Shown here: positions 45,752-57,668 of the stretch, piece by piece
Position numbering within the stretch: the first letter of the stretch is position 1
Layout of the letters: each line of letters starts with the position of its first letter
From: Ceratorhiza oryzae-sativae
Taxonomy: Eukaryota > Basidiomycota > Agaricomycetes > Cantharellales > Ceratobasidiaceae
Length of the DNA stretch: 64,000 bases
Assembly: GCA_030998015.1 (NCBI GenBank)
Contig: JARWMV010000003.1
Span: forward strand, 310,001 to 374,000
Reading direction: 5' to 3'
Program-made: the position numbers and the translations under genes
The notes under the pieces: model-generated
Databases searched by the model: none
What the model saw: the letters and a program-made list of their open reading frames with translations, nothing else
Told to the model about the DNA's origin: nothing

Positions 45752-47046
45752 TGTTATGGATTACTAACATTTTCTATTATTTTAGTCTGCTCTGCCAACC
45801 TCAAGCAATGCCTCTGTAATTTTCTTGAAATTAAATGAATTTGTATGTGTCTGAATTTGTACTATTTGTATCCCATTAAATTGTACAAAATCTCCTATTT
45901 CCAATGCATATTTTATTGTGATTTTATCTTAAGAACTCAGAGAGATATAGAGGTTGTGATATTTCCTCTTATCAGGAAATATTGATTACAACATCACACT
46001 GCTCATATCTCAGCAACTGCTCATGCTATCAATGCAACCTTATGCTCTATTGATAGCTAATTTTTGGCAGTATCTGCTGCCTGAAGATTGTTGCAATCCA
46101 CCAGATTCTTGTGCCAGAATGATTAGGATCTTACTGGACCATCAATCAAGATATAATGACTCCAGTGAGTCAGGAGAGCCTTCCAAATTGATCTAGATGC
46201 TTCTCTGACTCACTTTATGACTCACTGAGATGTAGCCTCCATTCATTACATGTATATACTAGATAATATGGTTTACAAGCCAATAGCAGGTCTCAGATGC
46301 ATCAATGCCTTTGATCCACACCCTGTCTTTACTTTTTTATCCTATACTGGGCTAGGGTGTACCTCAAGTATAGCAGTACCCTCTTTTGATGATTGCACTG
46401 GCATGTGTGCATCTATTTGGCTCTGGAATGCCCTCCTCAGGGTATAAAAGGATCTCCTCTGAGGCCCTTCCAGACCACCCTCCTACTCTTACTCAACCCA
46501 GACCAGTTATTGGTTTCTTTTCTCTTTCTATTTTCTCTTGTCTGTGTGTGATTTCATATATAACTAGTTCTGAGGAATAATGTACCATATTAGTTATATA
46601 CTGTCTGATTCATTGTATCTTATATACAGAGTTATATAAGGATACAATATTGCCTGATTGAGTGTGACATTAAGTACCAGCTATTAGAGGAAATCTAAGT
46701 ACCTGTAGCTGAGGAAGTACACACATTAGGCAGCCCACCATCTATCCTATAAGCTATCACTTAAGTTTAGTATTAAGATTAGTATCAGTTAGTCCAAGCG
46801 ACTAGGGCTGAACTACATTTAAGATATCTAAGGGAACCTGACCATAGTAGTCTTGCTCTTTATACCTATAAATTAGTCAGTTTACACTGTGAAAGATTAA
46901 GACTACCTTGAGTGTTACTTGATTGCATTGCAACTACTTTGAGCCTTCTTACTCTAGTCTAAGAAGTATTGAGTACAATTAGTGTATACTAACATATCTA
47001 CATTTTCTTAAGCTCTAGATATTCAAGTGTACCCTGACCCATAACA
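45752..47046 (+). repeat. LTR family A, copy 1
   Basis: 1295 bp from TGTTATGGATTACTAAC to CCCATAACA, same orientation as copies at 57923 and 60015. Contains GGTATAAAAGG (46441-46451), a TATA-like promoter. No matching target duplication (CATAC before, GTTGA after), so this copy is a recombination product or is bordered by a later rearrangement. Nearly every CpG present in copy 2 is TG or CA here. Confidence 0.85.
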
Positions 47047-47639
47047 GTTGACATATCCAAGTAGATTTAAATTGCAACAGCAATTATAGACAATACCAAG
47101 GTACATAGTGCCTTTAAGATAACACAGAACTTGCTTTCTGGAGTTCCAGTGTTCCTTGCCAGGATTCATAGCATGCTGCATGAATATACCAGTAGCATAG
47201 GCAATGTTGGGTTGTGTAGAAATCATAGCATGCATGAGGGAGCTGATAAGTTACTGGTAGCAATTCCAACCAATCAATGATGCTTCAAGCTTTGGTAGAT
47301 TGGGGAACTTGGCCATCAGAGTATTGGAAGATTAGCAGTCAGACATATTAAAGCAAGCAAGGATATTGTTGATACAACAGCACTGAGAGATCTTGAGAGT
47401 GCCAGTGCCGCAATCATGCTCAATTTCAATGCCTACAAACATTTTGGCCTTGCCTAGATCAACAATATCAAGTGATTTGGCAATTTTAGACTTGACCTTA
47501 TTAAGTATTTGTGTAGGCAATCCAGCCAGTAGTATATTGTCCATATGGCTAAGTATAATCACTACTTTGTCACCTTTGTGTAGCCAGAATACAGAGTGGT
47601 CCATATCACATTGCTTAAATCCCATGTCTTCAAGGATTT
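47047..47639 (-). pseudogene. Copia pol remnant: RT end and RNase H
   Basis: Minus-strand Ty1/copia fragment. FKQCDMDHSVFWLHKGDKVV then LSHMDNILLAG, LDIVDLGKAKMFVGIEIEHD, and farther on STQPNIAYATGIFMQ and HWNSRKQVLCYLKGT. The RT catalytic box, normally YVDD, is HMDN, so one catalytic Asp is lost. It ends abruptly in RNase H (LLGYVN) at the border of LTR-A copy 1. The upstream part of the same gene lies at 54905-56245, split off by nested insertions. Confidence 0.75.
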
Positions 47640-47728
47640 TCTTGTGTCATGAGCCAAGGTGGCTCATGACTGGAACTGGTGGCTATGACTATAAAGCTTA
47701 CTAATATTGTATTTTGGATGAGTAATGG
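47640..47728. repeat. Solo LTR family C, left part (with TCTTG duplication)
   Basis: Starts TGTCATGAGCC at 47645, preceded by TCTTG (47640-47644). It is interrupted after 47728 by the 47729-54551 element and resumes at 54557. Together about 427 bp. Confidence 0.75.
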
Positions 47729-48405
47729 TGTCGTGACCCTCTGGAGGCTCCCTTGTGGAGCACTTAAGTAGTGGCTGCGTTGACGGTTTGGTGCTATGCG
47801 GTATGTATTGAGTGTTCTAGTTACAGTGTTTGCTATGGTCTATGGTGGTTGACGAGATAAAGCAAGCTGAGGCATCCAGTCTTGCTTTATCCTCCTTATA
47901 TATACCTGTGGCTGCGGTGGCTGCAGACGTATTATCTAAGCACACTCCGCAGTAGGTGTAGGTCATGTACAGTACTATGGGTTAGGTAATTGTTTGTCTT
48001 AAGTTTGTGCGGCTCCGAATCTTATAGAGCCGCACGAGGTCCGAGGGTCATGTGACCTTTGGACTTAAGCACCTGGCGCTTAATCGCTGAATAAGCGCCG
48101 AGGTCACGTGACAACTCGCTCCTCGCTCCAGGTAACATGGGAGAGAAACGCTGGAGCGAGTTCAGGGTAACCACCGGCGCTTAATCGTTATGTAAGCGCC
48201 GAGATCACGTGACAACTCGCTCCTCGCTCCAGGTAACATGGGAGAGAAAGGCTGGAGCGAGTTCAGGGTAACCACCGGCGCTTAATCGTTAGGTAAGCGC
48301 CGAGATCACGTGATCCTGTTTATGGTTTGTTCCGCTTCGGGAAAAATGCCATAAATCTGTACAATATTCGGTTGTTAGGTTATGTCTGCTAGGCGGGTCA
48401 TAACA
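47729..48405 (-). repeat. LTR family B, 3' LTR (minus sense), 677 bp
   Basis: Plus-strand TGTCGTGACCCTC to GTCATAACA. Contains two full 101-bp tandem units plus a partial one (from about 48076). Each unit holds GGCGCTTA/TAAGCGCC and ACTCGCTCC/GGAGCGAGT inverted repeats and TCACGTGA. Confidence 0.9.
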
Positions 48406-48421
48406 TTATCCCCCCCTTTGG
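48406..48421 (-). other. Polypurine tract of the Rep-carrying element
   Basis: Reads CCAAAGGGGGGGATAA on the minus strand, directly against the LTR start TGTTATGACC. This fixes the element's orientation as minus. Confidence 0.65.
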
Positions 48422-48484: not shown

Positions 48485-48606
48485 CTCATATATTGAGGAG
48501 GTTAAGGGCGCTGGACTCGAACCAACGACCTTCTGTTCAATGTGTAATTGATTAGCTAGGAGATGATGAGTCAGGCTAGACCCCTTAACCTCTACGCTAC
48601 ATGAGA
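48485..48606 (-). ncRNA. tRNA-like structure with Pol III box motifs
   Basis: Minus strand carries GGTTCGAGTCC (B-box/T-loop consensus, about 48514-48524) and TAGCGTAGAGG (fits the A-box TRGYNNARNNG, about 48588-48598). They lie inside nested inverted repeats: GAGGTTAAGGG pairs with CCCTTAACCTC, and ATCTCAT pairs with ATGAGAT. I cannot fold it into a normal cloverleaf with a 7-bp acceptor next to the T-stem, so it is not a confident functional tRNA. A decayed or intron-containing tRNA gene, or a SINE-like remnant, is possible. Confidence 0.3.
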
Positions 48607-48703: not shown

Positions 48704-49963
48704 TTAAGGAAAAATAAAAAATGGCTTCCCTCCTGAGTATACCCAGTCTACGTTTTTGGATACCCATAAGTCCCCTTCTTCCCCCTCTATGTCCGTCCAA
48801 CACTTCATTATGGCCGACCGGCTATTCCCCAGGATCACCGTTGGTCGTACCTTCATTGACTTCACATGAGCATATCTGCCTGTGAAGTCTGCTTCGTACT
48901 GGCTCAGGGCTTTGAGCGAGTACTTCCCGTTTGACTGGACCATGTCATCCAGGATCCAGATGTCGGCGTCCTCCGACAGATTCCCCACGTTCCAGACGTT
49001 GCACATCCGGCTATGGGAGCCCTTGGATCACGCATACGCCGTCTTCCCAGTTCCTGTTTCGCCTTCGATCACCAGGATGCGATGGCGCACGCCCCTCCCT
49101 CTCTTCTCAGGCTCTTCCGCAAACCATCGGTCCGCCCTGTCGATGTGCGCCCGGTCTTCTGGGACTTCCAACTCCACCGGGATTGCAGGCATGCATCCCT
49201 GGTCCTCCTTATACGTGTACTCAGCATATGCTCGTACCGAGTTCCACGTTGTCACCATCTGGAGGGGGCGCAGGCGCTTGAATGCCTGGTAGTATTCTTT
49301 TTTTGTCGCTGAGGCAACAATCTCCGCCCCGTCCTCCAGGTCCGCCTCCGCCCTTGACCTTTTCCTGCCCTTTCCCTTCACCAGGATTTCCTCTAACCTT
49401 TCCAAGGTCAGGTCCCCCGCCATCAGCTCCTCTACCTCCTCGCTGTTAGCTCCGACATCCTTCCAGAGGTAGTTGAAAGCCTCCCTTGCAGGGTTGCCTC
49501 CTGGTCCGTCCTTGAGGTCCTTCGGCAGGATGTTGGGGTGTTGCCCCTCGAAGTCCCAGAACCAGGTGTTCTGGGTGTTCCAGCCGCCCTTCCGCTCCTG
49601 ACTGATGGAGAGGGCGTGGACATGGAGGGGCCGGGCCGGGTCGTAGTTCGGTTCCTCGGGGTTGTGGCGTTCCACCACCGCCAAAGTCGCCCAATGATTT
49701 GGCCGTTGGCGGCAGAACGCCTCGTATCGGGCGACGAGCCCACTTGAGGGCTGATCGCGTAGCTTCGACCAGGTCAGCAGCACCGCCCTGGTCTGGACGC
49801 GGAACCGGTTTCGGTCGGCTCTTCGGACCCTCGATCCGTCGGCGTAGGCCGCATAGAAGCGGGTGAGGGGCTCGGCTTGATACCGAGGGCGCTGGCGATG
49901 GCGACGCCGACCTCCGCCCTTCGCTTGATCCGCTTGGCTGGGGTGTTGCCGCGTTCGATCCAT
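48704..49963 (-). pseudogene. CRESS-type Rep gene (HUH endonuclease + SF3 helicase)
   Basis: Replication initiator of the circular ssDNA virus/plasmid type, related to geminivirus- and genomovirus-like Reps. The N-terminal HUH endonuclease shows motif I VLLTWSK, motif II PLHVHALS and motif III FNYLWKDVG with the catalytic Tyr and a following Lys. The helicase part shows Walker A EGETGTGKT (about 49040), Walker B ADIWILDDM and motif C PTVILGNS. The frame runs 420 codons from 49963 to 48704, interrupted once by a TGA at 49028-49030, just after Walker A. A second frame starting at 50019 (with AKRIKRRAEVG, NLS-like) overlaps the 5' end and may be the original N-terminus after a frameshift. Such proteins nick an origin to start rolling-circle replication. 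As it stands this copy would yield only the endonuclease half. It lies inside the LTR element, on the same strand. Confidence 0.85.
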
Positions 49964-50019
49964 TTCCGCTTAGCATCGTTTACAGTTTTAGAGGTATTTG
50001 GGGACTGGGAAGAGAGCAT

Positions 50020-50517
50020 GAGAGTGTGGGTTATCTCGGGTCTTGTGCTTGTCTATATAAGCTGCAAGGTCCGTTTTAATTGTCACATGACTCCATCTTG
50101 CATTTGTTGTGATCACATGACCTTATTTTGGTGATGACGCATCTCCGAGGGGTGCCCTCCCATCCGTTCCTCCGCGTCGGCCTTGATCCTCGCTACGCTC
50201 GGGGCCTCCGCTCCCCCACTTCAGTCAGTGCCCCCTCTCCGACCCCTCCGGTAGTTAGGGGATAGCGTATATTCACGTGACTAGGCTGGGTCATGTGATT
50301 CCTGTGCTTTGTTGTTTGTTTTCTGGCAGGTGGTCACATGACTAGGCTAGGTCATGTGATTCCCGTGCTTTGTTGTTTGTTTTCTGGCAGATGGTCACAT
50401 GTCTGTTGGTGTCACCTGACCAGACCTTGTTTTGATGTTTGTGCACGTTATTGTGTTGCATCGTGATTTTTTAACGTTCGTGGTTTTGTTGTTTTCCTTC
50501 CTCATCCCCTCTCTACT
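50020..50517. promoter_or_regulatory. Divergent intergenic region with 61-bp tandem repeats
   Basis: Lies between Rep (-) and the spliced small gene (+). Two 61-bp units start at 50273 and 50334, with a partial third at 50395. Each begins TCACGTGA or TCACATGA, contains GGTCATGTGA as its inverted partner, and ends TTTGTTTTCTGGCAG. More TCACATGA copies occur near 50086 and 50112. The layout resembles the iteron-bearing intergenic region of CRESS replicons, but I find no TAATATTAC-type nonanucleotide on a stem-loop. The repeats could equally be a bidirectional promoter with bHLH-type sites. Confidence 0.55.
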
Positions 50518-51071
50518 ATGCGTGTTATTTCCCTTAACTACAATCCCCTTGACTGCACCTGCTGGTCTCTCCCTGAGGGGGAGTACTGCGCCTACTGTGA
50601 TGCCGTGTGCGACGCCTCCCTTGAAGACTTCTATCGAGGTGTTGGGGACTGGTTCTTCTGTGGGGTGCCCGGTATGTATGTTCGTTCTTCGTCGTTCTCA
50701 CGTAGCTAACTTGTTCTGTAGAAGAGCGCATCCTCCTTGACGGTCGGGCCCATGAGGCCACCCTTGAGCGTGTCTGGGCGCTTGTTGATCAGGACTGCCG
50801 GTTACTTGAGGAGCGGCAACACCAGGCTGCCCTTGCTGAGTTTTTTGAGGAGGGCTCGGCCCCTTTGTTCGACGAGGCCTCACCCTTTGCGGCTTCTGGT
50901 TCTGGATGCTTCCAGAACTATATGGCCGATCTCCCAGGGGGGGAGGCCCCCTGGCTGTTGCCTGAGAACCAGGCTGGTGGTTCTGCGGCCCGTACTACTA
51001 GGAAGGATAAGAGGGCAAAAAAACCCTATACCCGGCCCCTCAAGGGCAAGAAAAAAATAGGAACATTTTGA
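50518..51071 (+). CDS. Small spliced gene divergent from Rep
   Basis: Unrecognised 167-residue protein. Exons 50518-50671 and 50722-51071 are joined over a 50-bp GT-AG intron (GTATGTATG to TTCTGTAG); the sum is 504 nt and the frame is kept. The N-terminus is Cys-rich (DCTCWSLPEGEYCAYCDAVC, a possible zinc-binding cluster). The middle is acidic and helical (LERVWALVDQDCRLLEERQH) and the C-terminus is strongly basic (KDKRAKKPYTRPLKGKKK). It is transcribed against the retroelement. In a CRESS replicon the gene opposite Rep is usually the coat protein; the basic tail is on the wrong end for a typical one, and I see no similarity. Splicing shows adaptation to nuclear expression. Confidence 0.6.
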
Positions 51072-51139
51072 AATGTATTATTATATGATTGTGAAAATTA
51101 TTCTTAAGACATTCCAAAAACGTGTGATAGGCCCGATAA

Positions 51140-51958
51140 TCACAGGGGCTCCGGGGCCAGCAGGGGCACTTCCTCCAGGGCGCCTGTCAGCTCATCCTCC
51201 CATTTGGCCCAATCCGTTTGGGCTCCCTCTTGGGCCAGGTCCGGGGTTGGTTCCTTTATCGTTACCCTCGGCTCCTCCTCCTTCACCACCAGGGACTCCA
51301 GGCTTGTCGTGAGGCTTGACATATCTGTGTCGTAACCGTGCAGGTTTGGGCGTGCCTTCACCCAGTTACGGAAGTCGGCCAAGTTTGCTTCCTTCAACCT
51401 GATGGCAGTAAACATTTCATCAGTGGTAGTGGCCTCAAGCAGTCCCACATACGGTGCCGCCGGTGCCAGTTTCCACTGCTCCAACAGTGCCTTTGCCCGG
51501 CGCTCCACCTCCCAGTCCCCTCCGTCTGCCATTTGGCCTGTGGCCCTCCTCTGTTGCCTTGCTGCCTTGGTCACCACGTCGACTGTTGGTCCCACGATAT
51601 TGTCGACGACATACATCGGTGTTCTTAACAAGGCGTTTCTCGTCGTTGGCTTTCGGCTTCCATGCCATGTCAGGACCCCTAACCTGGGATCCAGGTACTT
51701 GTCATCGTCAATCCAGTTCCTTTCATCCCTTAACTTCTTTGGGATGTACACTAGGTTAGCCCCTGGCAACAGTCGTTCGGCGTACCTCTGGGCGTCTTCC
51801 ACACTGGAGCAGTACATCCCTGGTTTAGGACGATTTTCCCTGCCCGGGTAGGGTGCTGGCCGCCTGGTGGTGGGCGGCTGCCGAAGTGGGGCCACCTGAT
51901 TTTCGGCAAGTGGGGTGTAACGGTTGGGATGTGCGATTGGGTGAGTGACGAAAGGCAT
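51140..51958 (-). CDS. Orphan gene of the Rep cassette
   Basis: Intact 272-codon frame, unrecognised. It starts MPFVTHPIAHPNRYTPLAEN and has a Pro-rich N-terminus, a central folded-looking part (AERLLPGANLVYIPKKLRDE, LDPRLGVLTWHGSRKPTTRN, MYVVDNIVGPTVDVVTKAAR) and an acidic C-terminus (DWAKWEDELTGALEEVPLL). Same strand as Rep and the retroelement; it ends 69 bp from the end of the convergent small gene. No stop or frameshift, high CpG and GC-rich third positions suggest it is recent or still selected. A structural or replication accessory protein is possible; no evidence decides. Confidence 0.55.
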   Translation of the reverse strand: MPFVTHPIAHPNRYTPLAENQVAPLRQPPTTRRPAPYPGRENRPKPGMYCSSVEDAQRYAERLLPGANLVYIPKKLRDERNWIDDDKYLDPRLGVLTWHGSRKPTTRNALLRTPMYVVDNIVGPTVDVVTKAARQQRRATGQMADGGDWEVERRAKALLEQWKLAPAAPYVGLLEATTTDEMFTAIRLKEANLADFRNWVKARPNLHGYDTDMSSLTTSLESLVVKEEEPRVTIKEPTPDLAQEGAQTDWAKWEDELTGALEEVPLLAPEPL

Positions 51959-52045: not shown

Positions 52046-53652
52046 TTAAAGCTTTCCAGATCCTCGTTTGGTTCTCTTTGGCCTGCCTTTCGAGTCACCT
52101 GAGTGCTGACTTGTCTTGACTGGCATTGGTGCGTCTGGTAAGCGCCTTTGCAAGTCATTTAGAACCTCTTTCATGTCAGCAAACTTGCTGGCACGTTCCA
52201 TTGTGTCTTCTATTGGGTCGTAGCCCTTCCATCTGATTTGGTAAAACAGCTCGCCATTCCGCCATTCATAATTTGCGATGTGGTCCACCTCGTATTCCTC
52301 CTCTCCTTTTTCCGTTATGATTGGTGGTGGTTTGGCCTGCCTTCTTTGGAAGTCTTTATCTTCTGTGAATGGCGAGAGGAGATTTACATGGAATACATTG
52401 TGTACACGTATGGTTTTTGGTAGGTCCAGGCGATATGCGTGGGATGAGATTTTTTCTGTGATTTCAAAAGGCCCCCCTTTTCAGTTGTCCAGTTTCTTGG
52501 AGGGTCTCTTGGACAAGAGGTTTGTTAGGAGCAGCCAAACCTTGTCTCCTACCTTGAATTCCCTCCCTTTCTTTTCCATTTGTTGGTGTAGTTCCATTGA
52601 GGCCCTTGCCTCATCCCATACCTTTTCCATTTGATTACGCATGTTGTCTGCGGCGGGTGCCTCAGATGGTTCTTCTCCCTCTCGGACAACCCATCTTGGG
52701 TTTTTTCCATATACTGTTTCAAATGGGGTTTGTCCTGTTGTAGCATTTACATGGTTGTTATGGCAGAATTTGGCAATGGGTAACCATTTTACCCAATCAT
52801 CTTGTCTATAATTGCAGAAGGTTCTTAAGAACCCTTCTACCCATTGATTTGTCCTTTCCCTTGGCCTTCCTGCTTCAGTTGTTTTCCGGAGCTCATTTCC
52901 TAGATCGGTTACCCGTTGTTCTAGTGCGATTAGGATCTCCCCTGTGTTTTCGGTTTTCTTCTCTAAGCTTTCGAGCTTTCGCTCTTGCATTCCCAGTACC
53001 CGGTTTATTTCCATGGAGATGTCCTTTAATTCTTTTATCAGGTTCCCCATTTCTGCTTTTAGGTCGTCCTGGTTCTTTGCCACATAGAGGACATTTTTGT
53101 TGGATGTTTCCATAGACCTTACCATCCAGTCCACGTTTCCTTCTTGTCGGGTTAGTGATATTTGACACTGATTTATACCTGTGATTGCCTTTTCTAGTTC
53201 CCTATGATTATTGTCTCTAAGTTCCTTGAGCCCCGCCCTGATGGCCGTGGCAATGGTGTGAATAGGGTTGGCAGTGGCTATGGTTCCGGGACCTGGCTGG
53301 GGTTGTGTCCTTGCCTCTTCCGCCAAGGCCATGCCTTGTTCGTATATGGTTCGGGTCATATCTTCTACCTCATCCCTTTCTGGATTTGAGATATCTTCTG
53401 GGTCTGGATTTATCAGGTGAATTGGCGGTTGAGGGCTGCGGAGTGGTATTCCCCCTATTTCCCCTCCCAGGATGGGGGCCCGAGTGGGGTTGGGTTGAGC
53501 CACTGGTCGTGGGTTTTGTGGCAACCCCCTGGCATTCCTTGGAGGGTCTCGTCTGGGTTACCTTCCGCCTCTGGGGAAGCAATGGGTTTGGGTGATTGTG
53601 GCCTACTGTTTGCCACCCTGCTTTGAGATCGAGTTTGTGGTCTCTGTGACAT
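52046..53652 (-). pseudogene. Gag fused in frame to integrase C-terminus and chromodomain
   Basis: Ty3-type coding region with a large internal deletion. A Gag start at 53652 (MSQRPQTRSQSRVANSRPQS) loses frame near 53530. The main frame from 53524 (LPQNPRPVAQPNPTRAPILG) includes a coiled-coil-like Gag segment (ERKLESLEKKTENTGEILIA). Near 52870 it passes without a stop into integrase (ERTNQWVEGFLRTFCNYRQD, then TGQTPFETVYGKNPRW). A TGA follows at 52481-52483, after which integrase-end sequence (HAYRLDLPKTIRVHNVFHV) leads to the chromodomain DHIANYEWRNGELFYQIRWK, stop at 52046. Protease, RT, RNase H and the integrase core are absent. Confidence 0.8.
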
Positions 53653-53773
53653 AGTTTCTTTGTGTTCTCTTATGTATCACAGGAGTTAGCTGGTTTTCTC
53701 GTGTACTCAGCCCTTAGTATCTGTGCAGTATACTTATGTTCGCCACTAGTTAAGTTAAGAGCTTGCTTTATAA

Positions 53774-54551
53774 TGTCGTGACCCTCTGGAGGCTCCCTTG
53801 TGGAGCACTTAAGTAGTGGCTGCGTTGACGGTTTGGTGCTATGCAGTATGTATTGAGTGTTCTAGTTACAGTGTTTGCTATGGTCTATGGTGGTTGACGA
53901 GATAAAGCAAGCTGAGGCATCCAGTCTTGCTTTATCCTCCTTATATATACCTGTGGCTGCGGTGGCTGCAGACGTATTATCTAAGCACACTCCGCAGTAG
54001 GTGTAGGTCATGTACAGTACTATGGGTTAGGTAATTGTTTGTCTTAAGTTTGTGCGGCTCCGAATCTTATAGAGCCGCACGAGGTCCGAGGGTCATGTGA
54101 CCTTTGGACTTAAGCACCTGGCGCTTAATCGCTGAATAAGCGCCGAGGTCACGTGACAACTCGCTCCTCGCTCCAGGTAACATGGGAGAGAAACGCTGGA
54201 GCGAGTTCAGGGTAACCACCGGCGCTTAATCGTTATGTAAGCGCCGAGATCACGTGACAACTCGCTCCTCGCTCCAGGTAACATGGGAGAGAAACGCTGG
54301 AGCGAGTTCAGGGTAACCACCGGCGCTTAATCGTTAGGTAAGCGCCGAGATCACGTGACAACTCGCTCCTCGCTCCAGGTAACATGGGAGAGAAACGCTG
54401 GAGCGAGTTCAGGGTAACCACCGGCGCTTAATCGTTAGGTAAGCGCCAAGATTACGTGATCCTGTTTATGGTTTGTTCCGCTTCGGGAAAAATGCCATAA
54501 ATCTGTACAATATTCGGTTGTTAGGTTATGTCTGCTAGGCGGGTCATAACA
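53774..54551 (-). repeat. LTR family B, 5' LTR (minus sense), 778 bp
   Basis: As 47729-48405, but with three full 101-bp units plus a partial one; the size difference of 101 bp is exactly one unit. Otherwise only a handful of substitutions between the two LTRs. Confidence 0.9.
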
Positions 54552-54556
54552 AATGG

Positions 54557-54904
54557 GGCCAACTGATGTGATCAGTCAGCCACTGTTGGTGCATTAGTTA
54601 TGTGAGGGATAGTAACTGCCAATCACCTGCATACTGATCCACCATTCATGCTGACTCACTCCCTCCACTTTGCTTACCGATCTGCCATTCATGCTCACTG
54701 ATACCAAATCATGTATGCTTATGTGATCATGTACATAGAGGAGTATAAATACAGCCATGAAGCTGCTCTGGGTCCCCCAGATTGCTTCATCTTGACATCC
54801 CCCCCACTATACTGGGGGGCAGGCTGGTGAAACCAGCCTGTCCCCATCACCTCTACTACACACACACACACACACCCAGGCAAGCAGTGGGTTGTGACAT
54901 CTTG
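54557..54904. repeat. Solo LTR family C, right part (with TCTTG duplication)
   Basis: Continues the LTR begun at 47645 and ends GGGTTGTGACA at 54899, followed by TCTTG (54900-54904), identical to the left flank. Contains a CA microsatellite (54859-54874) and AGTATAAATA (54750-54759), TATA-like. Confidence 0.75.
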
Positions 54905-56245
54905 AGGTGCATATAAAAGGCTTGTGCTGCCTGTTTGAGACTGTAAATCACTTTATTGAGCTTTCAAATGGATTGCAGGCCTTCAACAAAGCCTGGAGGT
55001 TACTCCATATAAGTCTCCTTGTCAAGATCCCCATGCAAAAAAGTGGTTTTAACATTGATTTGAAGAAGTCCAAGATTGAGAGCAGCTACAATGCTTAAAA
55101 GCATCTGTAAGGAATCAGCAACAGCAACAGGTGATGAAATTTGAACAAAATTGACTCCAGGGTGTTGAGAAAAGCCCATCACAACTAATTGAGCCTTGTA
55201 GTGCATGATTTTGCCATCAGGACCATGCTTATAGTCAAACACCCATCTGCATTTAACAACATTTTTGTTGATAGGTTGGCCCACAAGCATCCAGACTTTG
55301 TGCTGCTCAATTGATTTGAGCTGTTCTGTCATCACCTAAAGCCATAGATTTGCATCTGGGCAACACATAGCTTCCTCAACATTTGAGGTGGCAATTCCAT
55401 CATCACAGTAAGTGCCTCTTCATTCTCTTGTCTGTCTGTATGTGCTAAAACACCCACTTGCACTCCATGTCATACTGGTGCTCTTTGTTCACATAGATTG
55501 ACACAGAGGTAGTGGGTCTTGCTGTAAAACTGCAATCTCTTGCTCTTCAGGCTCCAAGTCTGAGCTATTGGAAGGTATGATTTCTGGTTCATTGGGTATG
55601 TGCACAGGTTCTGACAATTCAAATGGTTCATCAGATAATTTTGGTGAATGAGTCTTGATTTGGATTGGCAGTAATTCATCCAATTTACCCTCCTCATCAT
55701 CTGTTGGACTCTCATCATGGTCCTTAATAACCACACACTGCCAATTGTCTAGCACTTTGTCAAAGACCATGTCACATGATGTGATTATACAACTGATACT
55801 GCACTGAGCAAGCATGTGTGCCTTCCTATTAGGGGCAAATCCAAGTTATATGCACTTGATTGAGCATGCTTGGAGTTTCATGTGTGTATTGTCTGGCACA
55901 CAGGCCCAGGCCTTGCATCCAAAGATAAGTAATCCAGACACATTTGGAATCTTGCCACTAAATGCTTTGCTTGGTGTTTGGCCATCTAGGTGTTTCTTTG
56001 GTGTTATGTTCCAGAGGTGAGTTGCATGTAGGATTGTGTAACCCCAATACTTCTCAGGTAAATGTGTGTCAAATTGCATTGTGTGTTGACAATTGTTTAG
56101 GGTGTGTATTGCTCATTCAGCTACACCATTGCTTGCTGATGAATCAGCCTTGGTCTTCTGGTGCTGAATCCCCTCAGATTGCAGGAAAGCCTCAAAGGCA
56201 TTTGAACCATACTTGACACTGCCATCTGTTTGTAAATGTTTAATT
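54905..56245 (-). pseudogene. Copia pol remnant: integrase and N-terminal RT
   Basis: Upstream half of the copia gene continued at 47639. On the minus strand: LQTDGSVKYGSNAFEAF, then a TGA where NGVAER is expected, TMQFDTHLPEKYWGYTILHA, LWNITPKKHLDGQTPSKAFS, IFGCKAWACVPD (end of integrase), an acidic linker, then RT: MTEQLKSIEQHKVWMLVGQP, WVFDYKHGPDGKIMHYKAQL, TTFLHGDLDKETYME and YSLKQAAQAFYMHLK. It is truncated upstream near 56245. Several in-frame stops; non-functional. Confidence 0.75.
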
Positions 56246-56422
56246 TGTGTTGTAAGCCACCCTCAATTTCCCTCCCCTCTTTTCCCTTGTCACAACCTGG
56301 TCTCTAGGCCCTTACATGTACTCTTGAAGTACAGTTAAGGAGGATAATACCTCTGTGTATAGTCCTAATCACTGGCTTGGGTTCACCACTCAGCGTTGCC
56401 CAGTTGTCTGCTAAGGCCTCTG
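56246..56422. other. Repeat-derived spacer
   Basis: CpG-poor DNA between the copia remnant and an old family-B LTR. Nothing recognised in it. Confidence 0.4.
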
Positions 56423-57668
56423 TGTTGAGACCCCTCTGTCTGCCTGTCTCTATTGATTCCTTAAGTAGTGGCTATGTTGTCAGTGGTAATGTGCAGTGTA
56501 TATTGATAGTATTTATGTAGTATGTACAGGTGATCCCTGTGGTTGACAAGATAAAGCAAGCTGGTGTCCACTGTTATGACCTGCACAGACAACCATAACA
56601 TGACAAGAGAATTAGCATATAGTTTATAGCATTTTCTCCTAAGTTGAACAAGCTATAAACATAGTCATGTGACCTCAGTGCTTATCCTGGTGCTTACAGT
56701 GGTTATCTAACTTGCTCCTACAATTCTCTCCATTGTAACTTGGAGCAAGGAGTGAGTTGTCATGTGATCCTGGTGCTTATAACTGTCACATGACATTGGT
56801 GCTTACTGTGGTTATCTAACTTGCTCCTGCAATTCTCTCCATTGTAACTTGGAGCAAGGAGCAAGTTGTCACATGACCCTGGCACTTCACACATCACATG
56901 ATCTTGGTGCTTATGGTGGTTACCTAACTCACTCCTGCAATTCTCACCATTGTAACTTGGAGTGAGGAGTGAGTTATCATGTGACCTCAGCACTTAAATC
57001 ATGTGACCCTTGGACCTCATGTGGCTCTATAAGATTTGGAGCTGCAACAACCCTAAGAGCAACTTACTTAATACTTGTTTACACCACACATGACATATAA
57101 CATACTGCAGACTGTGGAACAGTCTGACTCATACCTTGAGGGGTATATAACTCATTGAAAGCAAGACTATGGACCCCAGCTTGCTTTATCTTGTCAACCA
57201 CAGGGACCACCTGTACATACTACATAAATACTATCAATATACACTGCAAATTACCACCGACAACATAGCCACTAGTTAAGGAATCAATAGAGACAAGGAG
57301 ACAGAGGGGTCTTGACATCCACAGGCTTGCTTTCAATGAGTTATATACCCCTCAAGGTATGAGTCAGACTGTTCCACAGTCTGCAGTATGTTATAGGTCA
57401 TGTGTGGTGTAAACAAGTATTAAGTAAGTTGCTCTTAGGGTTGTTGTGGCTCCAAATCTTATAGAGCTGCATGAGGTCCTAGGGTCACATGACTCCTTGC
57501 TCCTTGCTCCAAGTTACAATGGAGAGAATTGCAGGAGCAAGTTAGATAACCATGGTAAGCACTGAGGCTATGTGACCCTGTTTATAGCTTGTTCAACTTT
57601 GGAGAAAATGCTATAGACTATAGATTAATTCCCTTGTTATGTTATGGCCATCTGTGCAGCTCATAAAA
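56423..57668 (+). repeat. Old family-B LTR split by a second family-B LTR
   Basis: The plus-sense LTR starts near 56423 (TGTTGAGACCCCTCTG) and ends near 57668 (CAGCTCATAAAAAC). It is heavily decayed relative to the LTRs of the Rep-carrying element; for example CTCGCTCC units appear as CTTGCTCC. It is interrupted at 56571 by an inverted copy. Confidence 0.65.
56567..57322 (-). repeat. Nested solo LTR family B (inverted), duplication TCCAC
   Basis: 746-bp minus-sense LTR (56572-57317), TGTTATGACC to GGGGTCTTGACA on the + strand, flanked by TCCAC at 56567-56571 and 57318-57322. It holds several decayed 101-bp-type units. With the host LTR it forms a large inverted repeat. Confidence 0.75.

Follow-up and report, generated by a model that had tools for sequence, protein, structure and literature searches.

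An LTR retrotransposon family of Ceratorhiza oryzae-sativae with a selected three-gene module that includes a geminivirus/genomovirus-like Rep gene

Can a replication initiator (Rep) of the type encoded by circular Rep-encoding single-stranded DNA (CRESS) viruses become a working part of a retrotransposon? The question is raised by a locus of the basidiomycete Ceratorhiza oryzae-sativae, located in the stretch of DNA analysed here (the window; 64 kb of contig JARWMV010000003.1, positions 310,001 to 374,000) within a 48.8-Mb genome of 253 contigs. The locus is a Ty3/gypsy chromovirus on the - strand (54551 to 47729, 6,823 bp) in which a cassette of three genes, ORF2, the antisense gene X and a Rep, lies between the chromodomain and the 3′ long terminal repeat (LTR). 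The features described in the original prediction are all present: the two LTRs, the polypurine tract, the chromodomain, the flanking AATGG copies and the three-gene cassette. We consider it very probable that the three-gene module is a constitutive, selected part of the element.

Pattern scans of the genome, allowing up to three mismatches and using reversed patterns as controls, gave 143 matches for Rep, 136 for the integrase-chromodomain region and 134 for reverse transcriptase (RT), with none for the controls; a second, subfamily-specific Rep pattern, taken from the first subfamily, gave 63. With 100 places listed for each of the two patterns, at least 67 of the 100 integrase-chromodomain places have a Rep on the same strand 2-5 kb downstream, which is a lower bound, three have one farther off and 30 have no listed Rep. 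Ten apparently unpaired places were fetched (three RT matches and seven of the 30 chromodomain places), and cassette sequence was found in all ten. These fall in two further subfamilies, the seven chromodomain places belonging to a more diverged one, in which tblastn detected a Rep 69-88% identical in six of seven, the contig of the seventh (L042) stopping before Rep. The junction between cassette and LTR is the same in 34 of 38 distinct loci; as for the other four, in L043 no more than the final 27 bp of the LTR are seen, L041 and L042 continue beyond what was fetched, and L023 is a truncated locus. At the nine loci where both ends were checked, the 5-bp duplications match at five and are all different (AATGG, CCCTG, CTTAG, ACAAG and GGTAC). 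The recurrent junction, these duplications and a Rep about as numerous as RT bear out the claim that the cassette travels with the LTR element. The cassette is mobile together with the element, and several loci with the same LTR-cassette junction and different duplications, which the original prediction had named as support, exist within this genome.

The same data dispose almost entirely of an assembly artefact, in which an LTR element would have been joined to an unrelated repeat. A cassette confined to this locus with random junctions, or produced by an assembly join, is excluded by the 143 Rep places and the recurrent junction, and the five matching duplications and the position of many cassette loci on long contigs (from 100 kb to above 1 Mb) also speak against it. 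What could be read in its favour comes from the four loci with non-matching duplications (C36, C143, C186 and C164). Three of them, C143, C186 and C164, have the same internal deletion as the window copy and match its high-side flank (98.7-99.6% over 3 kb for C186 and C164, and compared over 15 bases for C143) but differ at the low-side flank, at the other LTR edge. Because these low-side flanks differ, some LTR junctions may be recombinant or misassembled, and the three loci look like segmental duplicates, LTR-LTR recombinants or misjoined short contigs. Four transpositions of the deletion derivative are ruled out, since C143, C186 and C164 have the window's high-side flank. Two Rep-carrying elements (L002 and L019) adjoin each other on C143, the LTR edge of one abutting and cutting the ORF2 of the other.

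All three cassette proteins are preserved by purifying selection. Comparison of 27-28 loci in pairs gave ratios of nonsynonymous to synonymous polymorphism (pN/pS) of 0.28 for Rep (residues 62 on), 0.31 for ORF2 and 0.17 and 0.24 for exons 1 and 2 of gene X, against 1.00-1.64 in the shifted frames of all three genes, the constraint being confined to the coding frame in Rep, ORF2 and gene X. The extended set, with bootstraps over codons and shared ancestry uncorrected, gave 0.18 for Rep (0.14-0.22, 36 loci), 0.32 for ORF2 (0.26-0.39, 37 loci) and 0.27 for exon 2 of gene X (0.17-0.39, 37 loci), with the integrase-chromodomain region as yardstick at 0.34 (0.22-0.53, 31 loci). Synonymous diversity is 0.20-0.21 in the cassette against 0.044 in the integrase-chromodomain region, for locus sets that are not identical, and the GC content of the cassette genes is 0.57-0.58 against 0.45 for pol.

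These ratios bear directly on the idea that the cassette is a mere passenger, stemming from a viral integrant that became caught in a single element and multiplied with it while serving no function. Many copies are frame-disrupted, the window copy among them, and singleton variants of Rep have an N/S of 1.54 compared with 0.93 for variants found in four or more copies, as this idea would allow. However, the coding-frame pN/pS lies far under 1 in all three genes, the cassette was recovered in every one of the ten further places across subfamilies, and Rep relatives 48-80% identical exist in Ceratobasidium and among unnamed proteins, making a functionless passenger very improbable.

The Rep gene itself occupies 48704-50019 on the - strand, 50019 being a candidate start. 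In the open copy L002 its protein has, in order, LLTW, HVH, the WDFEGQHPNI motif resembling the geminivirus Rep sequence (GRS), YLWK, GETGTGKT, ILDD and ILGN, comprising histidine-hydrophobic-histidine (HUH) endonuclease, GRS-like and superfamily 3 (SF3) helicase motifs. The motif strings quoted in the original prediction were exact, and the six standard motifs (GRS not demanded) occurred in this order and spacing in 0 of 200,000 shuffles of the L002 protein. The predicted extent needed revision: the gene extends beyond the 49963 first given, one of its two overlapping frames reaching 50019, and its frame is disrupted in the window copy. Of the 28 distinct cassette loci in the initial set, 12 have one uninterrupted frame that spans 429 codons or more and contains every motif; in 17 of 38 loci a single open frame, in some cases short at the start, has the six motif strings. 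In the window (49774-50019) and in L002, L004 and L009 the first ~60 Rep codons are present in two overlapping frames, which by eye resemble the N-termini of different protein sets of Ceratobasidium AG-Ba, one P0005-like and the other P0007-like; these frames may hold alternative starts of Rep or a conserved overlapping reading frame.

Ten motif residues are unchanged in 27 of 27 copies, among them H133, H135, Y184 and K187 of the HUH motifs; eight of the ten we take to be catalytic or nucleotide-binding. A GRS-type motif is present between motifs II and III when compared with Table 3 of PMC8703526, in which genomovirus Reps have, for example, LLTYSQ/K, HLHA/HVHC, RKFDVEGFHPNI, YATK, GPTRTGKT, VFDDI and a terminal N. 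From these motifs, on which the assignment is based, we hold with good confidence that the Rep belongs to the geminivirus/genomovirus lineage; it would be viral in origin. The 61 relatives found come from Ceratobasidium (AG-Ba, 394, 395, 414, 428 and UAMH 11750) or are unnamed JGI/lgn proteins. All six motifs were found by the same expression in 13 of the 61, many others being fragments or apparent shifted gene models. Rep is probably multi-copy in AG-Ba, because one cluster represents 38 sequences. One AG-Ba protein, P0021 (560 amino acids, aa), has a Rep-like part followed by an unrelated C-terminal stretch.

The two companion genes announced by the original prediction are present, the one on the + strand with a structure that had been missed, being predicted to be spliced. 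ORF2 (51140-51958, - strand, sense to the element) encodes 272 aa and had no relative and no Pfam match. Gene X, antisense to the element, comprises exon 1 (50518-50671, + strand), a 50-nt intron (50672-50721; GTATGT...CTAAC...TAG) predicted from the sequence and exon 2 (50722-51071), together encoding 167 aa with a cysteine-rich start and a basic end. The intron was measurable in 36 of 38 loci, with 50-51 nt and GT...AG in 35; L038 aligns through the intron, L029 is cut within it, and no intronless junction was found in the 38 loci. The low pN/pS of exon 2 is restricted to the frame predicted by splicing. Two open reading frames (ORFs) of the window that overlap gene X had no Pfam match, the spliced 167-aa protein not having been searched, and neither ORF2 nor gene X (as unspliced window ORFs) was recognisable as a viral gene; no capsid gene was recognised. 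Since gene X is antisense to the genomic RNA of the element, its intron would survive retrotransposition by virtue of this orientation. The intergenic region (50020-50517) has a TATA box at 50059 (- strand) and two 61-bp tandem repeats (50273-50394), each with an inverted repeat of the type TCACRTGAC-N8-GTCATGTGA, and Rep and gene X seem to be independent units that are transcribed divergently, rather than parts of a polyprotein.

The explanation that we prefer, and to which we would give about an even chance, is that of a selected Ty3/gypsy module with a captured Rep that now serves the element, most likely on element DNA. The chromovirus family has fixed ORF2, the antisense gene X and Rep between pol and the 3′ LTR; the Rep, in sense orientation and with its own TATA box, would have been captured from a repensivirus-like mycovirus or from an endogenous copy of one. 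It would now serve the element and not a virus: it may nick and unwind extrachromosomal element DNA (cDNA or LTR circles) or the LTRs, with ORF2 and gene X as its partners, and its action would raise the copy number or the integration of the element. Taken by itself, an enzymatic action of the Rep on element DNA is a plausible but tentative proposition, falling somewhat short of even. A hybrid replicator, combining reverse transcription with rolling-circle-type amplification of circular or nicked element DNA by the Rep, is rather unlikely; it would use iteron-like repeats (TCACGTGA) found both in the LTR and in the promoter region of Rep and gene X. In favour of such a rolling-circle role are the catalytic set intact in this genome, the selection among copies and the common TCACGTGA.

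Several results weigh against the preferred explanation. When L002 was aligned with 49 database relatives, and rows with a letter at the position were counted, the relatives proved to vary at H133 (35/39), H135 (35/39), Y184 (38/43), K187 (37/44) and T83 (24/39), with K326 (41/42) and D358 (43/43) better kept; some of the deviating rows look like shifted gene models. Because many Rep residues are invariant, retention of the catalytic ones says little when taken alone. The association with an LTR element is seen in this genome alone, the other Ceratobasidium species being represented by proteins only. Rep matched no named virus Rep, PDB chain or viral contig, and no viral Rep family above cut-off in Pfam or PHROG. 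No CRESS virus emerged from the protein search, from a profile search of a 5.8-billion-protein set (best 7,997 candidates scored) or from an IMG/VR scan, and a DNA scan for the GRS motif returned one 11-kb contig and no CRESS virus. Among the Pfam matches of the Rep homologues Gemini_AL1 was absent and Gemini_AL1_M did not exceed its cut-off; the latter was matched in 5 of 15 homologues over nearly the full profile (best E 0.001, 19.5 bits, cut-off 24), spanning, in the four inspected singly, the part after motif III up to Walker A. Unrelated sub-threshold matches in the same scans are nearly equal (Jiv90, 0.0048; P53_TAD, 0.0052), so with unrelated families scoring E ~0.005 the Gemini_AL1_M match is support and not proof. 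AlphaFold models reached a mean predicted local distance difference test (pLDDT) of 35 for the full Rep and 46 for the HUH part, and the Foldseek outcome (nothing below E 1.9) is meaningless because of these values.

The search for an origin points in the same direction. The window element has no TAATATTAC nonanucleotide and no stem-loop origin was found in it; TAATRTTAY has a single match, TAATGTTAT at 48400 on the - strand, which spans the boundary of polypurine tract and LTR and is inside none of the listed hairpins, and the loose pattern TAWWDHWAN has 20 matches, TAATGTTAT included. In the LTR hairpins the loop is more variable and the stem nearly, although not wholly, constant, the opposite of CRESS origins, in which the loop is the constant part and the stem more variable. 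An LTR hairpin as a CRESS origin is thus unsupported. The earlier proposals that a single-stranded DNA (ssDNA) replicon spreads by retrotransposition, or that the Rep replicates the element, are conjectural. The element is not classed as a CRESS virus, because it lacks such an origin, a Pfam match above cut-off and a recognised capsid gene. The seven copies of TCACGTGA in the window are all within the element, common to the LTR units and the Rep/gene X intergenic region. We do not favour the sequence as a Rep iteron over a host CACGTG site for basic helix-loop-helix (bHLH) proteins, which it presumably fits, such a site being known from yeast; it is also in excess across the whole genome, with 2611 matches as compared with 608 when the pattern is reversed.

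The missing origin is also what might be expected if Rep, ORF2 and gene X formed a host-manipulation kit acting on host chromatin, silencing or the cell cycle. A host-directed role is, in our estimate, nearly as likely as a role on element DNA, though itself below even. The simultaneous selection on three genes and the appearance of Rep and gene X as separate divergent transcription units agree with it, as does the account in PMC12774355 of a genomovirus Rep that alone slows its fungal host, the ATPase domain being needed; a title among the references of PMC6338049 concerns suppression of transcriptional gene silencing in plants by a geminivirus Rep. On the other hand, all 27 copies retain the HUH residues H133, H135, Y184 and K187, which a purely regulatory role need not require, and ORF2 is without a known relative. 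Catalytic retention likewise argues against the Rep serving superinfection exclusion against related ssDNA mycoviruses, kept through selection on the host or on the element as its ally, since a decoy would not require active catalytic residues. As a precedent for such protection, the viral helicases carried by insect retrotransposons have been proposed (PMC6338049), but an ssDNA virus of the same lineage was not found in the protein, profile and IMG/VR searches, and we regard this explanation as unlikely.

We return to the window element, whose layout is that of a Ty3/gypsy element, with the qualification that the copy is an internally deleted derivative. The 5′ LTR (53774-54551, 778 bp, TG...CA) and the 3′ LTR (47729-48405, 677 bp), both on the - strand, differ by 2 mismatches in 677 aligned positions and by one 101-bp tandem unit, of which the 3′ LTR has one fewer. 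The 101-bp units (48066-48405 and 54111-54551) carry TCACGTGA and have the dyads AACTCGCTCC/GGAGCGAGTT and GGCGCTTA-N9-TAAGCGCC. AATGG stands at 47724-47728 on the low side and at 54552-54556 on the high side, and the polypurine tract AAAGGGGGGGATAA (48406-48421, - strand) adjoins the 3′ LTR. A candidate primer binding site (53760-53771, - strand) of 12 nt is complementary to LTR positions 53902-53913, which lie 36 nt downstream of a TATA box in the LTR; a 12-nt complement was reached by 2 of 5000 shuffled LTRs. TG...CA LTRs, polypurine tract, candidate primer site and 5-bp duplication, all expected of Ty3/gypsy elements, were thus found. A self-primed Tf1/sushi layout fits because of this LTR complement below the TATA box, and the SH3_Tf2-1 match agrees.

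In the window copy the gag part (52859-53660, - strand, upper limit approximate) is joined at 52859 to the integrase by the internal deletion, so the LTR element of the original prediction stands but lacks protease, RT, RNase H and part of integrase. The C-terminus of integrase, a Tf2-type SH3 domain and the chromodomain follow at 52046-52859 (- strand, Pfam), the Chromo match of 5.5e-5 being just under the cut-off; the homologous stretch of L034 matched SH3_Tf2-1 at 3e-20 and Chromo at 7.6e-6. Similarity to the window ends at 52859 in most copies, counting those whose fetched stretch extends there. A full-length relative of ~10.2 kb (C39:67608-77786) has gag, protease, RT, RNase H, integrase, chromodomain, cassette and both LTRs, with pol domains spread over several frames and its own duplication CCCTG. 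The order gag, protease, RT, RNase H and integrase with a C-terminal chromodomain was established from this copy (gag to integrase) together with L034 (C-terminus).

A tRNA-like stretch at ~48500-48600 was dropped, ARAGORN making no call by default and a weak one at a lowered threshold only; Rfam gave nothing credible for it, and its fold z-score was -2.1. Two parts of one degenerate Ty1/copia pol flank the element (47011-47643 and 54901-56247, - strand); one resumes at the residue where the other ends, and both resemble the L032 copia proteins (65-75% identity). As a single copia pol is split on its two sides, the element inserted in or beside an old copia copy. The converse nesting is seen at L032 (C31), where a largely intact copia interrupts pol in an element that carries Rep. 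The stretch 56572-57646 holds remnants of old LTRs, in either orientation, with 66-79% similarity to the element LTR and with 108-bp repeats.

Genes for reverse transcription and for HUH-type initiation of DNA replication thus occur in one element family, both under selection. The locus makes it directly testable whether a retrotransposon can employ an initiator of DNA-virus type. It also points to a way in which genes of ssDNA viruses could settle permanently, and in many copies, in the genomes of fungi, and it may account for the annotated Ceratobasidium 'hypothetical proteins' that match Rep. The antisense gene X perhaps exemplifies how an intron can survive retrotransposition in nature, thanks to its orientation. 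Among the top matches in the open-licence PMC literature, no title or abstract opening presented an LTR element with a Rep.

Among the closest known systems are the Tf1/sushi chromoviruses, with which the family shares gag, protease, RT, RNase H, integrase, Tf2-type SH3, chromodomain and polypurine tract, as well as a 12-nt self-complementary candidate primer site and a 5-bp duplication; what sets it apart is an additional ~3.3 kb that follows the chromodomain and precedes the 3′ LTR and holds three further genes, of which one is antisense and contains an intron. With Rep of the Genomoviridae and Geminiviridae (Repensiviricetes) the cassette Rep shares the motif order, the GRS-type motif, YxxK, GxxxxGKT, DD and N, but overall its sequence is not detectably similar to any named Rep, neither a capsid gene nor a nonanucleotide origin was recognised, and it belongs to a chromosomal LTR element. 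A multi-copy geminivirus-like Rep in a fungal genome has a parallel in the Tuber melanosporum transposon described by Liu et al. 2011 (PMC3198968), to which that paper attributes 37-bp terminal inverted repeats, two transposase ORFs and an interrupted Rep, with no obvious target duplication and no description of LTRs or pol, in contrast to the LTRs, pol and 5-bp target duplication found here. Virus-derived helicases have been fixed in insect retrotransposons (PMC6338049), but that account concerns superfamily 1 (SF1) RNA helicases of RNA viruses fused to the polyprotein, whereas the Rep here is a separate gene of DNA-virus type. The bdelloid rotifer LTR retrotransposons, as presented in PMC5408684, resemble the present family in a captured enzymatic ORF beyond gag and pol, their ORF3 being a GDSL esterase, a DEDDy exonuclease or a paramyxovirus env; here the captured gene is a replication initiator of DNA-virus type, accompanied by two genes, the antisense one of which contains an intron. 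Since that work already documents captured ORFs in LTR elements, the novelty of the family lies in a DNA-replication initiator as the captured gene.

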